From contig NZ_JAODNV010000012.1 of the NCBI RefSeq assembly GCF_025398195.1, forward strand, positions 1 to 64,000: 64,000 bases of DNA. Direction: 5' to 3'. Shown piece after piece: positions 2,509-35,460 of the stretch; positions within the stretch are counted from its first letter, which is position 1, and each line of letters opens with the position of its first letter. A program made the translations under genes and the position numbers. Source of the DNA: Chelativorans petroleitrophicus (lineage in GTDB: Bacteria > Pseudomonadota > Alphaproteobacteria > Rhizobiales > Rhizobiaceae). The notes below the pieces were generated by a model. That model was not told the DNA's origin. It saw nothing but the letters and a program-made list of their open reading frames with translations, and did not search any database.

Positions 2509-5433
2509 TTACTCCGCCGCTTCCCTCTTCCTCCCCGGCCTTCTCTCCAACAACTCCCGCAGGAACTTGCCGGTGTAGCTGCGCGGTTCGGCCATGACGT
2601 CGTCGATGGAGCCGGCGACGACGAGTTCGCCGCCGCCGTCGCCGCCCTCCGGCCCTAAGTCGAGAATCCAGTCGGCGGTCTTGATGACCTCCAGATTGTG
2701 CTCGATGACGACCACGGTGTTGCCCTGGTCGACCAGCTCGTGCAGGACTTCGAGCAGCTTGGCGACGTCGTGGAAGTGGAGGCCGGTGGTGGGCTCGTCG
2801 AGGATGTAGAGCGTGCGGCCGGTGGCCTTCTTCGACAGCTCCTTGGCGAGCTTGATGCGCTGCGCCTCGCCGCCTGAAAGCGTGGTGGCCTGCTGGCCGA
2901 TATGGATGTAGCCGAGGCCGACGCGGGAGAGGGTGAGGAGCTTGTCGCGCACGGCGGGCACGGCGGAGAAGAACTCGACGCCCTCATCGACCGTCATTTC
3001 CAGCACGTCGGCGATCGACTTGCCCTTGAAGAGGACTTCCAGCGTTTCGCGATTGTAGCGCTTGCCGTGGCAGACGTCGCAGGTCACGTACACGTCCGGC
3101 AGGAAGTGCATCTCGATCTTGATGACGCCGTCGCCCTGGCAGGCCTCGCAGCGCCCGCCCTTGACGTTGAAGGAGAAGCGGCCGGGCTGGTAGCCGCGCG
3201 CCTTGGCTTCGGGCAGGCCCGCAAACCAGTCGCGGATCGGCGTGAAGGCGCCGGTGTAGGTGGCGGGATTGGAGCGCGGCGTGCGGCCGATGGGGGACTG
3301 GTCGATGTCGATGACCTTGTCGAGGAATTCGAGGCCCTCGATGCGGTCATGCTCGGCCGGGTGCTCCTTCGAGCCCATGATGCGGCGGGAGGCGGCCTTG
3401 TAGAGCGTTTCGATGAGGAAGGTGGACTTGCCGCCGCCCGACACGCCGGTGACGCAGGTGAAGGTGCCGAGCGGGATCTCGGCCGTGACGTTCTTGAGGT
3501 TGTTGCCGCGCGCGCCGACGACGCGGATGCGCCGCTTCTTCGAGATCTCGCGGCGGCGGGCGGGCATGGGGATGGAGAGCTCGCCGGTGAGATACTTGCC
3601 GGTGATGGAGGCGGGGTTCGCCATGATGTCCTGCGGCGTGCCCTCGGCGATGACGCGGCCGCCATGGACGCCCGCGGCGGGGCCGATGTCCACCACGTGG
3701 TCGGCGGAAAGGATGGCGTCCTCGTCGTGCTCGACCACGATGACCGTGTTGCCGAGGTCGCGCAGGTGCTTGAGCGTGGCAAGGAGCCGGTCGTTGTCGC
3801 GCTGGTGAAGGCCGATGGAGGGCTCGTCGAGCACGTAGAGCACGCCGGTCAGCCCCGAGCCGATCTGCGAGGCAAGGCGGATGCGCTGGCTCTCGCCGCC
3901 CGAAAGCGAGCCGGAATTGCGCGAGAGGGTGAGATAGTCGAGGCCGACGTCGTTGAGGAAGTTGAGGCGCTCGCGGATCTCCTTGAGGATGCGCGCGGCG
4001 ATCTCGTTCTGCTTGTCGTTGAGTTTTTCGGGCAGCGCCTCGAACCAGGCGCCGGCCTTGCGGATCGACATTTCGGTGACTTCGCCGATGTGAAGACCGT
4101 CGATCTTGACGGCGAGCGCCTCTGGCTTCAGCCGATAGCCGTTGCAGGCCGGGCAGGGGTAGGACGACATGAAGCGCTCGATCTCCTCGCGCATCCAGGC
4201 CGATTCCGTCTCCTTCCAGCGGCGCTGCAGATTGTTGACGACGCCCTCGAAGGGTTTTGACGTGCGGTATGAGCGCAGGCCGTCATTGTAGTCGAAGGCG
4301 ATCTTCTTCTCGCCCGTGCCGAAGAGGATGGCGTTCTTCGCCTCCTCGGACAGGTCCTTCCAGCGGTTGCCGACCTTGAAGCCGTATTCCTTGCCGAGGG
4401 CTTCCAGCGTCTGCAGGTAATAGGGCGAGGTGGACTTCGCCCAGGGGGCGATGGCGCCCTCGCGCAGGATGGCGTTCTCGTCCGGCACCACGAGGTCCGG
4501 GTCGATGGCGCGCTGGCTGCCGAGCCCGTCGCAGGCGGGGCAGGCGCCGGCGGGGTTGTTGAAGGAGAAGAGGCGCGGCTCTATCTCGGGGATGGTGAAG
4601 CCCGAGACCGGGCAGGCGAATTTTTCCGAGAAGACGATACGCTCGTGCGTTTCGTTCTTGGATTTGTTGGCGGCGCCCCCTTCGGCCGTCTGCTCGGGCG
4701 GCAGGGGCCGGTCGGCGAACTCGGCGATGGCGAGGCCGTCGGAGAGCTTGAGGCAGGTCTCGAGCGAGTCAGCAAGGCGCGTGGCGATGTCGGCACGGAC
4801 CACGATGCGGTCCACCACCACGTCGATGTCGTGCTTGTATTTCTTGTCGAGCGCGGGGACGTCCGCGATCTCGTAGAACTGGCCGTCGACCTTGACGCGC
4901 TGGAAGCCCTTCTTCTGAAGCTCGGCGAGCTCCTTGCGGTATTCGCCCTTACGCCCGCGCACGATGGGGGCGAGGATGTAGAGGCGCGTGCCTTCCTCCA
5001 GCGCCAGCACCCGGTCCACCATCTGGCTCACCGTCTGGCTCTCGATCGGCAGGCCGGTGGCCGGCGAATAGGGCACGCCCACCCGCGCGAAGAGCAGGCG
5101 CATGTAGTCGTAGATCTCGGTGACCGTACCGACGGTGGAGCGCGGGTTCTTCGAGGTGGTCTTCTGCTCGATGGAGATGGCGGGCGACAGGCCATTGATC
5201 TGGTCGACGTCCGGCTTCTGCATCATCTCCAAGAACTGGCGCGCATAAGCCGACAGGCTTTCCACATAGCGCCGCTGGCCCTCGGCATAGATCGTGTCGA
5301 AGGCGAGCGACGACTTGCCGGAGCCCGAAAGCCCGGTCATGACGATCAGCTTCTCGCGCGGGAGATCGAGATCGACGTTCTTCAGATTGTGCTCGCGCGC
5401 GCCGCGAATGGAAATGAACTTGTGCTCGGGCAT
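2509..5433 (-). CDS. uvrA: Excinuclease ABC subunit A
   Basis: UvrA is the damage-sensing ATPase of nucleotide excision repair and loads UvrB on distorted DNA. The sequence shows two ABC modules: Walker [10 protein letters not shown] near the N-terminus and GVSGGGKST in the second half, with signatures LSGGESQRI and LSGGEAQRI. Zinc-binding pairs are visible as CPVSG/CPACDG and [16 protein letters not shown]. The chosen ATG gives [11 protein letters not shown], the usual N-terminus, and about 974 residues, a normal length; an in-frame start 12 codons upstream is also open. Walker A of the second module has Gly where Ser is more common (GVSGGGKST), a mild variant. The gene is divergent from ssb with a LexA box between them, as in other alphaproteobacteria. 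Confidence 0.98.
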
Positions 5434-32211: not shown

Positions 32212-32402
32212 GACATCCTCCCGAATCCCGCAGCCTGCCGGAGCCGATGTTACCCTGTCGGCCGCGCGGCGCAAAATCCGGCCGCTCAATGGCCGGCGGC
32301 GGCCCGACGGCGCAGAAAAGCCTGAAATCGTCCGGACTTGCGGCGAGGAGCGGAAGAGTCTTTGTGCTTTTGACAATTATGTTATTTGAATGCCGTTTAT
32401 GC

Positions 32403-32431
32403 TTGTCGGCGTTGTCGCGCACGAATATATA
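32403..32431 (+). promoter_or_regulatory. Candidate dksA promoter
   Basis: TTGTCG, 17 bases, TATATA is a good sigma-70-type match. The predicted start near 32438 gives a leader of about 24 bases before the dksA ATG at 32462. An AT-rich stretch with TTGACA just upstream (32370) may hold a second promoter. Confidence 0.5.
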
Positions 32432-32461
32432 GGCGCCGCTGGCAAGTTGTGGGGTAGGTCC

Positions 32462-32878
32462 ATGTCCGAAGTCCTCGATGCCGACTATGTGCCCTCCGAA
32501 GACGAGCCGTTTATGAACGAGCGTCAGCGGGCTTATTTTCGCAACAAACTCATCAGGTGGAAGAACGAAATCCTGAAGGAGGCACGCGAGACTCTGGAAG
32601 CATTGCAGCGTGAAAGCGCGAATCATCCCGATCTCGCTGACCGCGCCTCCTCGGAGACCGACCGGGCGATCGAGCTCAGGGCGCGCGACCGTCAACGCAA
32701 GCTGATCGCGAAGATCGATGCGGCGCTGCAGCGCCTGGAAGATGGCACCTACGGCTATTGCGAGGAAACGGGGGAGCCCATTTCCTTGAAACGCTTGGAT
32801 GCGCGTCCCATCGCCACGCTGTCGATCGAGGCGCAGGAACGTCACGAGCGGCGCGAGAAGATCTATCGCGACGACTGA
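32462..32878 (+). CDS. dksA: RNA polymerase-binding transcription factor DksA
   Basis: DksA binds in the RNA polymerase secondary channel and works with ppGpp in the stringent response. The 138-residue protein has the coiled coil with the tip motif DLADRA (Asp57, Asp60, Ala62). The zinc-finger region keeps only one of four cysteines: Cys100 is present, and positions 103, 121 and 124 are Thr, Ser and Ala (GYCEETGEPISLKRL). It is therefore expected not to depend on zinc, like the low-cysteine DksA forms known in some bacteria. Rhizobial DksA proteins generally look like this as far as I recall. Confidence 0.95.
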   Translation: MSEVLDADYVPSEDEPFMNERQRAYFRNKLIRWKNEILKEARETLEALQRESANHPDLADRASSETDRAIELRARDRQRKLIAKIDAALQRLEDGTYGYCEETGEPISLKRLDARPIATLSIEAQERHERREKIYRDD

Positions 32879-32942
32879 TCCTTTTGAGGATCCTTTCGGT
32901 GCTTCATGACGCCACTGAAAGGGTCCAAGTTTCCCAATCCAG

Positions 32943-32982
32943 ACGGAAGAACCGGTATCCGCTTTTCTTGAACTGCGCTAAG
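32943..32982. repeat. Copy B of a 40-base gene-end repeat
   Basis: Related to the copies at 28361 and 37695, sharing the core TCCGCTTTTC and the end GCGCTAAG. It lies 65 bases after the dksA stop codon. A GGATCCTTT/AAAGGGTCC inverted repeat at 32889-32925 precedes it and may serve as the dksA terminator. Confidence 0.5.
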
Positions 32983-33023
32983 CAACCTGCGCGCCGCACC
33001 TACCTGTGGCCCTGGGCGGCTTA

Positions 33024-33635
33024 TCAGGAAAAGGTGGAAAGCAGCGTGCTCTGCTCCTGAACGACGGCGAATTCGACGGCGATTCCGCCGTCGAAATGAC
33101 GCACAACCATGCTGCGCAAGGGGCCGAGGAAGACCTGCGATCCCACCTCGGGCTTGATCTCCGTCTCCACGGCGGCGCCGGAGAGCGAGAGGTCCACGAT
33201 CCGGCAGGGATAGCGGCCTTCGCCGGGGATGTGGATGGTCGCGACCTGATTGCGGGGTGTGATTCGCTCGTGCCGCCGGTCCTCGGACAGATTGAGCTCG
33301 TGCCGGTTGGCAAGCCAGGTGAGCTGCGCCGCGAGCTTGTCCCGCTTGCGGTCCGACGCGTTGATCGTCATGGCGAAGCCGCCGTCGAAAAGGCGCGCGA
33401 TCCGGCCCTCGATCCGTCCGACATGGTCCAGATAGGCCACTACGCGCTCGCCGGGGCTGCCCGTGCGCTGCGCAAGGAGGGCCACGCCGCCGGGCGACAT
33501 GTCGATGACCCGGCAGGGATGCTCGGAGTGGTCTTGCAGCATGTAGCGGCCGTAAAGCGTGACCTTTACCCGCTGAAAACGCCGCCTCTCAGAGCCCCGC
33601 ATCGGCATGGGATGTGTTGCCACCGAAACCGTCAT
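33024..33635 (-). CDS. Tandem PilZ domain protein
   Basis: A 203-residue protein made of two PilZ-like domains. The first has RRRFQRVKVTLYGRY and VIDMSPGGVAL, the second DRRHERITPRNQVATI and IVDLSLSGAAVE. The R-x3-R and (D/N)-x-S-x2-G motifs are the c-di-GMP contacts of PilZ domains: the first domain has RFQR/DMSPGG, the second RRHERI/DLSLSG. It probably binds c-di-GMP and affects motility or surface growth, but the target is unknown. GGAGGGG precedes the ATG. Confidence 0.9.
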   Translation of the reverse strand: MTVSVATHPMPMRGSERRRFQRVKVTLYGRYMLQDHSEHPCRVIDMSPGGVALLAQRTGSPGERVVAYLDHVGRIEGRIARLFDGGFAMTINASDRKRDKLAAQLTWLANRHELNLSEDRRHERITPRNQVATIHIPGEGRYPCRIVDLSLSGAAVETEIKPEVGSQVFLGPLRSMVVRHFDGGIAVEFAVVQEQSTLLSTFS

Positions 33636-33713: not shown

Positions 33714-34349
33714 TTACGGGTCGCGCCGCCCGCCCTGCAGGACGACGAGGTGGCGGATCCGCCGCCCGAAGCCGTCGAGGCGGGCCGACAATTCCTGCTT
33801 GCTGGGCGACAGGGGCGGCACCGGCATGCCGTGGCGGAGGGAAACGAAGGGCGCTTCGCGGTCGGGATCGAGCATCCGGAAGCTTTCCACCCGGTTTTCC
33901 ACGATCGGATCGGCACCCAGCCAGTAGGGCTTCATGAAGGGCTGGATGGTGCCGAGCGCCCGCGCGCCTTCCCTGCCGCCGTCGAGCGGCAGGATGAGCA
34001 GCTCAAAGCGGTTCAGCCGGCCGTCGCGGCTCTTTCCCTCGAAGGTGATGACGGCGACCGTCGATTCCTCCAGCGCTTGGGAGACGAGGCGGCTCACAAG
34101 GGCCTGATCCCTTGCCGCCCAGAGCGAAGGGAAGACAAGGCCGCGCAATTCCTTGCCGTAGGTGGCGCAGATGCGCGTGCCGGCAAGCCGGAAGACGGGT
34201 TCGCCGCGCATCCCGCGTTCCAGAATGAACGTGTCGGCGAGAAGCCCCTTGATGTCGGCGGGTTCTATTTCGGTACGCCGCGGAGCAAGGCGGCTGCCAC
34301 GCAGCCTGTTCCAATATTGGAACAAAGCCATGGTGCCGTCCCGATTCAT
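33714..34349 (-). CDS. PAS domain protein (PAS_5 family)
   Basis: A 211-residue protein of a family common in rhizobia. Typical stretches are FQYWNRLRGSRLAPRRTEIE, DTFILERGMRGEPVFRLAGT, RICATYGKELRG and FELLILPLDGG. It seems to be a stand-alone sensory PAS domain with no output domain. The ligand and partners are unknown. The ATG at 34349 is chosen because it matches the usual N-terminus; another ATG lies at 34331. Head-to-tail with the PilZ gene. Confidence 0.88.
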   Translation of the reverse strand: MNRDGTMALFQYWNRLRGSRLAPRRTEIEPADIKGLLADTFILERGMRGEPVFRLAGTRICATYGKELRGLVFPSLWAARDQALVSRLVSQALEESTVAVITFEGKSRDGRLNRFELLILPLDGGREGARALGTIQPFMKPYWLGADPIVENRVESFRMLDPDREAPFVSLRHGMPVPPLSPSKQELSARLDGFGRRIRHLVVLQGGRRDP

Positions 34350-34560
34350 GCCTGCCGCTCTCACTTTCCCTGCCTTGTCCTGTCCCAAATCTGGACGGGA
34401 GCCGCGCTCCTTCCGTCTGTTTGGAGGAGAAGCAGGAGGCGTGCCAGTCCCGTTATGGGTTTGTGCACGGGAAGGGTTTGTTGGGGTAAAGAAGCGGTAA
34501 ATCGCCTAAACGACTGACTTGAAAGCATTTTGCAGTGATCCTGCTCCCGCGGTCCGAAGT

Positions 34561-34576
34561 TGGCATGGCCCTTGCC
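34561..34576 (+). promoter_or_regulatory. Sigma-54 (RpoN) promoter motif
   Basis: TGGCATGGCCCTTGCC matches the -24/-12 consensus TGGCACG-N4-TTGC at all but one position with exact spacing (GG at 34562-34563, GC at 34574-34575). The predicted start is near 34587. No protein gene follows before the terminator at 34632-34671, so it appears to serve the small RNA candidate below. Confidence 0.6.
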
Positions 34577-34586
34577 TAGCCAGTGG

Positions 34587-34671
34587 CAGAGGCGGGGGAC
34601 TCGACCGGGGAGGAGGCGGGGACTCGACCGGGAAGCCGTCCAGCGGGAACGCTGGGCGGCTTCTGTTTTTT
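34587..34671 (+). ncRNA. Candidate small RNA under sigma-54 control
   Basis: A transcript of about 85 bases is predicted from a sigma-54 promoter motif to a strong intrinsic terminator, with no reading frame between. It contains two near-identical tandem units, GAGGCGGGGGACTCGACCGGG at 34589-34609 (21 bases) and the same sequence one G shorter at 34613-34632, rich in GGA motifs. It lies in the 370-base gap between two divergent protein genes. The terminator cannot serve a gene on the plus strand because none ends here. I do not recognise a known RNA family. Confidence 0.5.
34632..34671 (+). terminator. Intrinsic terminator of the candidate small RNA
   Basis: A stem of about 13 pairs (GAAGCCGTCCAGCG with CGCTGGGCGGCTTC, one G-U pair) with a short GGAA loop is followed by TGTTTTTT. 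This is a textbook rho-independent terminator on the plus strand. Confidence 0.85.
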
Positions 34672-34719
34672 CGTGAGGTCTGATACCGCAGGCTGCAGCA
34701 AGCCGATCCGCAGGATGTC

Positions 34720-35460
34720 ATGACCGACCACGACAGCGCCACCCAGGAACAGCCGCAGGGCGGACAGGCTCCGGCGCGCGAGCCCTTCTTCAATCTTTCC
34801 GGAATCGTGACGGCCATCATCGGCCTGTGCATCCTCGTGCATTTGGCGCGGCTCTATCTCCTGAGTCCCGCGGCGGATGCTTGGGTAATCCTGCATTTTG
34901 CCTTCGTGCCCCTGCGCTTTACGGGCGGCTATCCGCTGGACGCCTCCGCTTTTGCAAGCCCGTTCACTTATGCGTTCCTGCACGGGAGTGCGATGCATCT
35001 TGCCGTCAACATGATCTGGATGGCGGCATTCGGCTCGCCGCTCGCCAATCGGATCGGCACGGCCCGCTTCATCTTCTTTTGGGCGGCCACCGCGCTTGCG
35101 GCGGTGCTTCTCCACTTTGTGCTTCATCCTTCGGACCCGGTGCCGCTGGTGGGGGCGTCCGGCGCCATCTCCGGCATGATGGGAGCGGCGGCGCGCTTCG
35201 CCTTCCGCATCGATCGCAGCGCGCGACGGCCGGGCTTTGCGGGACCTGTGCTGCCGGTGCCAATCGTGTTCCGCTCGCGCATGACGGTGGTTTTCCTGGC
35301 CGTCTGGTTCGTGGTGAACCTGGTGGTGGGCCTTGGTTCCGGGACCGGCGGCACGCCCAGCATCGCCTGGGAGGCGCATATCGGCGGGTTCCTGGCCGGG
35401 TTTCTCGCCCTGCCCGTTTTCGACCGTTCGCCGCGGCAGCAGCCGGAGAGCGGCAGCTGA
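34720..35460 (+). CDS. Rhomboid family intramembrane serine protease
   Basis: A 246-residue protein with about six membrane helices. The catalytic serine lies in VGASGAISGMMGAAAR (GASG) and the histidine in WEAHIGGFLAGFLAL. HGSAMHLAVNMIWMAAFG is the conserved rhomboid segment with the H-x-x-x-N oxyanion residues. It cleaves membrane proteins within the bilayer; substrates are unknown. The ATG has AGGA eight bases upstream. It starts 49 bases after the small RNA terminator. Confidence 0.93.
   Translation: MTDHDSATQEQPQGGQAPAREPFFNLSGIVTAIIGLCILVHLARLYLLSPAADAWVILHFAFVPLRFTGGYPLDASAFASPFTYAFLHGSAMHLAVNMIWMAAFGSPLANRIGTARFIFFWAATALAAVLLHFVLHPSDPVPLVGASGAISGMMGAAARFAFRIDRSARRPGFAGPVLPVPIVFRSRMTVVFLAVWFVVNLVVGLGSGTGGTPSIAWEAHIGGFLAGFLALPVFDRSPRQQPESGS

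Follow-up and report, generated by a model that had tools for sequence, protein, structure and literature searches.

A candidate sponge RNA with a sigma-54-type promoter and its C-rich partner RNA in Chelativorans and other Hyphomicrobiales

THE LOCUS AND ITS FEATURES

The window analysed here is the whole 64,000-nucleotide stretch that opens contig NZ_JAODNV010000012.1 of the Chelativorans petroleitrophicus draft genome. A short putative transcription unit lies on its plus strand between a divergent PAS_5 gene and a rhomboid protease gene; PilZ and CBS genes flank the locus. The features are as follows:

33714..34352, minus strand: PAS_5 protein gene (PF07310), upstream and divergent, a conserved neighbour
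34561..34575, plus strand: sigma-54-type -24/-12 promoter TGGCATGGCCCTTGC, of the form TGGCAT-N5-TTGC, the only exact TGGCAY-N5-TTGC in the window
34595..34609, plus strand: pairing site copy 1, GGGGACTCGACCGGG, complementary to CCCGGTCGAGTCCCC of the C-rich RNA
34607..34613, plus strand: GGGGAGG, which can pair with CCTCCCC of the same C-rich loop, bipartite with copy 2
34618..34632, plus strand: pairing site copy 2, GGGGACTCGACCGGG, a tandem duplication
34631..34671, plus strand: intrinsic terminator GGAAGCCGTCCAGCG-GGAA-CGCTGGGCGGCTTCT with T-run (TTTTTT, to 34671), from the fold, kept in aligned congeners
34720..35460, plus strand: rhomboid protease gene (PF01694), downstream and outside the RNA, a conserved neighbour
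G000:C2:210554-210639 (L031:4055-4140), minus strand, outside the window on another contig of this draft genome (G000): C-rich-loop RNA of 86 nt in the 3′ UTR of a C93 (BTLCP) peptidase gene

The initial annotation had reported a promoter, direct repeats and a strong terminator at this place, and motif, repeat coordinates and fold all bear it out. The two GGGGACTCGACCGGG copies are spaced 23 nt apart and embedded in GGCGGGG(G)ACTCGACCGGG, and the 5′ tail of the unit holds several GGA triplets; the second copy is found in this genome alone among the 16 of the genus. For the terminator, an 87-nt fold reaches -48.1 kcal/mol, whereas shuffled sequences average -33.9 (z -4.7) and none of 200 folds as well. 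From a predicted start at about 34587-34588 the unit would yield an RNA of about 85 nt. Its description as non-coding, with a conserved promoter and terminator, is likewise supported. Open reading frames of at least 60 amino acids that overlap it number none on the plus strand and two on the minus strand. The pattern TGGCAY-N5-TTGC occurs once in the 64-kb window against a mean of 0.27 in dinucleotide shuffles, 23 of 100 of which have at least one, so that the motif alone is not beyond chance; it is beyond chance because it is conserved at the same place in 11 of the 16 genus genomes, this one counted.

At gathering thresholds Rfam gives only four tRNAs in the window, and the permissive matches of the unit (ctRNA_pGA1, KDPG-aldolase and others) are all below threshold.

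THE C-RICH PARTNER RNA

A 15-mer scan placed a further copy of GGGGACTCGACCGGG 2.5-3.7 kb upstream in most congeners; in this genome the further copy is at C2:210617. The opposite strand of this second site encodes a C-rich-loop hairpin and then a terminator, in the order AACCCGGTCG-AGTCCCCACCTCCCCGTCCCCAA-CGACCGGGTT-(terminator); the loop, GUCCCCACCUCCCCGUCCCC, includes CACCUCC. Both copies of the pairing site in the unit are fully complementary to CCCGGTCGAGTCCCC of this RNA. The longest complementary run at copy 1 is 15 nt, and GGGGAGGAGGCGGGGACTCGACCGGG is the best ungapped site of the unit against the C-rich RNA; GGGGAG-like letters also stand 5′ of the motif in many relatives.

Twenty-nine C-rich RNA sequences align, with a nearly invariant loop. 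In the stems both sides have changed in 11 of 21 pairs and 98.4% of cells pair; 0 of 500 shuffles were as high, the structure being derived from the same alignment. At E<=0.01, weak matches included, the model built for it, R1, matches 137 of the order's 297 genomes, in 63 of 123 genera. Among named loci it matches 68 of 80, several of the loci being truncated at a contig end. It also finds the C-rich RNA in G011, whose copy is itself in the model, and in G014. Because of an indel and a divergent loop, a plain pattern search overlooks both elements in these two congeners; inspection shows a degenerate unit in each.

Rfam gives no match at gathering to the C-rich RNA in 14 related loci or in 10 loci of other genera. 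Assignment to sX13, ar14 or CcsR1 was rejected, as all scores lie below gathering (22 versus 50 bits, 17.4 versus 58.8 and 12.6 versus 65.3, respectively). Assignment to alphaR8 (MmgR/SisA) was rejected too, since the UUUCCUCCCU core is absent from alignment A1 and the upstream neighbour is a C93 peptidase gene, not formylglutamate amidohydrolase. The C-rich RNA is a candidate new family in its own right, and its CACCUCC loop suggests a likeness to anti-Shine-Dalgarno sRNAs.

The element stands directly behind the C93 gene (PF06035) in all of 68 named loci and in 42 of the 43 other loci, at a median of 18 and 32.5 nt from the stop codon, respectively. Such constancy would suit a reading in which the C-rich hairpin is a cis element, not a free sRNA, and the unit acts on the C93 peptidase mRNA by pairing with this 3′ UTR hairpin and altering stability. 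We think that unlikely. The element ends in its own co-varying terminator hairpin; its sub-threshold Rfam matches include the C-rich-loop sRNAs listed above; and conservation is equally high in the paired half of the loop and in the half dispensable for the core site (CCUCCCCGUCCCC), which suggests other partners of the loop. The reading preferred here is that the element is probably a regulatory RNA, for which the unit may serve as a sponge.

SPREAD OF THE UNIT

A BLAST search with 34501-34700 (61 genomes, E below 1e-5) found motif and terminator in 13 of 15 congeners. Farther afield the rhomboid gene was used as a handle for locating the unit. In 80 named loci selected in this way the loose motif pattern GG[GA]?GG[AG]?CTC[GA] occurs upstream of the related rhomboid gene in 72 (Mesorhizobium, Aminobacter, Nitratireductor, Aliihoeflea and others), against 5 of 80 on the antisense strand, 1 of 80 downstream and 0 of 80 within the rhomboid CDS. 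TTT follows within 60 nt of the motif in all 72.

A whole-genome pattern was applied to another family, f35. Besides the C-rich RNA itself, a second site (at most two mismatches) is present in seven of nine genomes, upstream of a rhomboid ORF in all seven; in the larger genus of the family it lies about 7-14 kb from the C-rich RNA. One member, G272, has a third site with no rhomboid beside it. An exact GGGGACGCGACC search of 12 genomes recovered the partners' own antisense and sponge-like sites in G307, G273 and G122; the sites in G106 (two), G080 and G049 have no rhomboid match in the locus, and no terminator was seen there. The site in G122 (L364:1500-1560, GTGGGGGACGCGACC), a candidate for a relocated or independent partner, has a hairpin behind it, judged by eye; the C-rich RNA is about 370 nt away, and the 3-kb locus contains no match to rhomboid.

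Precedence of the rhomboid gene in the 72 named loci and at the seven second sites of f35 could also mean that the unit is a 5′ leader or attenuator of the rhomboid mRNA, at which the C-rich RNA alters termination. The linkage in the 80 loci is partly by design, however, because they were chosen by their rhomboid gene; the site lies anywhere from about 70 to 300 nt before the extrapolated start of rhomboid; and the G122 site stands beside the C-rich RNA without a rhomboid match. We regard a leader as quite improbable.

PAIRING AND CO-VARIATION

Co-variation was assessed with one genome per genus in 36 genera, genera without a visible site included. This sample consists of fetched loci, mostly those with the best R1 scores, and is not random; G080, G155, G071 and G118 were dropped as no rhomboid was found. 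The 410 nt around each rhomboid upstream region were paired with every partner, with 20,000 permutations.

The own-pair score is 1123.5 against a permutation mean of 999.8 (sd 23.2; z 5.3), and 0 of 20,000 permutations were as high. By subset, 8 of 20,000 were as high outside the family (n=25) and 320 of 20,000 inside it (n=11). Both controls were null (minus strand, z -0.16; letter-shuffled upstream, z -0.24). With a 17-nt target, z was 4.56 overall, and 56 of 20,000 permutations were as high outside the family; within the 11 genera of the family this version detects no co-variation (z 0.06), because targets there are nearly identical. A duplex-energy version gave z -5.4 (0 of 20,000 overall, 36 of 20,000 outside and 440 of 20,000 inside the family). 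Extended complementarity is thus kept by compensatory change across genera, the 17-nt target inside the family excepted.

Co-variant pairs include GGTCGCATCCCA/TGGGATGCGACC in G184, GGTCACGTCCCC/GGGGATGTGACC in G057 and GTCACGTCCCC/GGGGGCGTGAC in G048, and G272 has a 20-nt match. In 25 loci both strands of the complete stretch were searched with the partner's 31 nt. The best site was in sense orientation upstream of the rhomboid gene in eight (G301, G265, G245, G307, G184, G290, G272 and G057), and such a site ranks third in G048 and G303. Complementary runs of at least 11 nt, G-U allowed, occur on the sense strand in 37 of 67 genomes and on the other strand in 3 of 67; 16 of these genomes come from one genus and are not independent. 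By our reading, clear own-partner sites occur in families f1, f13, f16, f22, f27, f35, f41 and f43, and no clear partner lies upstream of the rhomboid gene in 16 of the 25 genera outside the family. Two genera of the family with GTCAAGTCCCC targets (G036 and G533) keep C opposite the changed A, so the sponges there did not follow the target change, and the genera with GTCAAG targets show no co-variation.

The duplex of the tail with the C-rich RNA is computed at -73.7 kcal/mol, versus -54.8 (sd 4.4, best -69.6) for 500 dinucleotide shuffles. Net of intramolecular folds it is -30.0, versus -17.6 (sd 5.0, best -32.7) for 200 tail shuffles. A net gain of no more than about 2.5 sd means that co-variation carries more of the argument than energy does. 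Since the partners can be far apart, on different contigs in G000 and about 350 kb from each other in G006, they are expected to act in trans.

Taken together, these comparisons of sequence make it very probable that the unit and the C-rich RNA are pairing partners. The initial annotation had mentioned in passing that the repeats might pair with C-rich targets, an idea that now has a specific partner RNA, with co-variation. A sigma-54-dependent sRNA pairing directly with C-rich sites in mRNAs, its match to the C-rich RNA being incidental, could make use of two sites to serve several mRNAs; we hold this to be very unlikely, as the match co-varies with the C-rich RNA across genera.

THE SIGMA-54 BOX AND ITS REGULATORS

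Five genus genomes have no sigma-54 box before the motif (G004, G005, G008, G011 and G014). In an IQ-TREE phylogeny of four neighbouring proteins the 11 box genomes form, with G008 and G014, a 13-genome group (support 91/96), the two box-less genomes sitting inside it. The best tree takes two changes for the box, and one clade of 11 is not rejected (p-AU 0.205). A single origin is not claimed: FastTree support for that clade is only 0.32, and IQ-TREE neither shows nor rejects it.

Among the 80 named loci the box occurs at three units, all apparently in this genus; in other genera it was not seen. TGGCAY-N5-TTGC has five matches in the 1,506,512 strand-bases of these loci, and three of the five stand at this unit. 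Before the motif, GTTAAGGTTAA (at most one mismatch) is present in 66 of 67 loci (L266-L340, restricted to loci that have the motif with enough of the stretch ahead of it), followed by the majority consensus CAAA-N-GGTTTAC-N-TTGC-N15-GTGGCA. We read this block as a probable older, sigma-70-like promoter; it also resembles CtrA-type sites joined to a promoter. With motif and terminator found family-wide and the box limited to a subgroup of the genus, the RNA appears to be older than its sigma-54 promoter. This corrects the initial annotation, which had named a conserved terminator without a conserved promoter as evidence against the unit: that pattern does hold literally outside the subgroup, whereas inside it the box is kept in 11 of 13 genomes.

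Promoters of the sigma-54 type often serve nutrient-stress responses. All 16 genus genomes encode RpoN (PF04552), and the sponge would therefore respond to a signal that depends on RpoN. Sites of the NtrC type (TGC-N11-GCA) are absent from the 250 nt upstream in the window, and one of 11 orthologous upstream regions has one.

A different dyad, TGT-N11-ACA (TGTCCCA-N-GGACA/GAACA), precedes the sigma-54 box by 172-208 nt in 9 of the 11 genomes (L032, L033, L035, L037-L041 and L044). The window has only an imperfect form, at 34381-34397, and a like dyad also occurs in genomes without the box.

PROPOSED MECHANISM

We consider it probable, with some reserve, that the unit is a sponge of a C-rich, anti-Shine-Dalgarno-type sRNA and has been re-wired to sigma-54. 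The observations behind this (conservation of both RNAs, their complementarity and co-variation, and the distribution of the promoters) are comparative and come from the sequences themselves.

The predicted RNA of about 85 nt would carry its two sponge sites in a largely unpaired 5′ tail and end in the terminator hairpin. The C-rich RNA, with its CACCUCC-containing loop, probably represses mRNAs at their ribosome-binding sites; the unit, if transcribed, would sequester or destabilise it, and repression would be relieved. We infer this direction of action, as a sponge, with a confidence a little above even. In relatives outside the genus the sponge would be preceded by the sigma-70-like block. 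In one Chelativorans-like subgroup it would have been re-wired to sigma-54, such that RpoN with an enhancer-binding protein would switch it on. NtrC is an obvious candidate for the activator, though its site was not found in the window.

For the history of the pair we lean towards the following course. A C-rich sRNA from a peptidase 3′ UTR and a dedicated sponge, usually a few kilobases away, would have co-evolved by compensatory changes in several Hyphomicrobiales families. The sponge of the subgroup would then have lost a long 5′ part, exchanged its sigma-70-type promoter for a sigma-54 promoter and, in this genome, doubled its binding site.

RNAs of the RsmY/Z type titrate CsrA/RsmA proteins, and the 5′ tail holds several GGA triplets. 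The initial annotation had suggested that the GGA-rich repeats could bind CsrA-like proteins; such titration is next to impossible here, as CsrA (PF02599) was found in 0 of 16 genus genomes by a search that was positive in Escherichia coli, Bacillus subtilis and Thermotoga maritima.

COMPARISON WITH KNOWN RNAs

CrcZ is a short sigma-54-dependent non-coding RNA that acts on a protein, and Hfq decoys of its type carry repeated A-rich Hfq-binding motifs; the repeats here, GGGGACUCGACCGGG, are not A-rich. The sX13 RNA (RF02232) has hairpins with C-rich, anti-Shine-Dalgarno-like loops. CcsR1 (RF02791), going by its Rfam name, is likewise a C-rich loop hairpin, as is the partner RNA. GlmY and Qrr resemble the unit as short non-coding RNAs made from a sigma-54 promoter (for Qrr, in the part of PMC12559287 drawn on here). 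GlmY, described as a decoy sRNA, acts on protein, whereas the evidence for the unit points to an RNA partner.

The closest parallel in the material cited is CrfA of Caulobacter crescentus, which inactivates the C-rich sRNAs SisA-D (alphaR8) and is induced by carbon starvation (from part of PMC12559287). Both CrfA, as described there, and the unit are alphaproteobacterial, present a G/A-rich stretch that would pair with C-rich sRNAs of the anti-Shine-Dalgarno type, and have a link to nutrient stress, which for the unit is a predicted one. On the same partial account (PMC12559287), CrfA pairs through a stem-loop, whereas the unit would pair through its 5′ tail, with the site doubled in this genome; and alphaR8 RNAs have UUUCCUCCCU and mostly lie beside an N-formylglutamate amidohydrolase gene, whereas the partner here has GUCCCCACCUCCCCGUCCCC and lies behind a C93 peptidase gene.

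Like the partner RNA, ar14/NfeR1 (RF02344) has C-rich, anti-Shine-Dalgarno-like loops; unlike it, ar14 has three hairpins, each with CCUCCUCCC (in the portion of PMC10746234 used). GsrN of Caulobacter pairs by a cytosine-rich loop with a G-tract of its target RNA, as is proposed here. GsrN homologues typically lie near general-stress genes, however, and GsrN activates katG mRNA, with no sponge described in the sections of PMC5869019 relied on for both statements.

An sRNA with a sponge is a kind of system already known; notable here are the co-variation across families and the promoter exchange. No description of this RNA pair was found among the titles and abstract openings listed by searches of the open-access literature, and the words 'rhomboid' and 'transglutaminase' are absent from the main texts of PMC3927594, PMC5596092 and PMC5082802. 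Comparative sequence alone points to sponge, target and co-variation in at least eight sampled families, by our reading. The C-rich RNA is widespread and a candidate post-transcriptional regulator, matching no Rfam family at gathering; the pair occurs in named genera such as Mesorhizobium, Aminobacter and Nitratireductor, which offer tractable strains. If true, the exchange of a sigma-70-like promoter for a sigma-54 one in a single subgroup would be a regulatory re-wiring traceable at the level of the sponge RNA, and would illustrate how an old RNA circuit can acquire a stress input.

VARIATION IN ARRANGEMENT AND COPY NUMBER

The usual congener order is C93 - PilZ - PAS - unit - rhomboid (window 32390-33635 compared with L032). 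In this genome the neighbourhood is rearranged: PilZ adjoins a DksA-like gene, and C93 with the C-rich RNA is on another contig, about 1 kb from its end.

Two adjacent copies of the C-rich RNA occur in G051 (L254:3962-4042 and 4054-4135, minus strand), with 5′ arms GGTCGCG and GGTCACG, and in G023 hairpin and terminator segments are duplicated inside the C-rich RNA (L143:1161-1278, minus strand). In G466 the unit (GGGGATGGGGAAGTGGGGCCGACCAG; L154, reverse complement), which stands about 126 nt before the start of rhomboid, is a near-full antisense of its partner's loop, a hint that an inverted copy of the C-rich RNA may have given rise to the unit.
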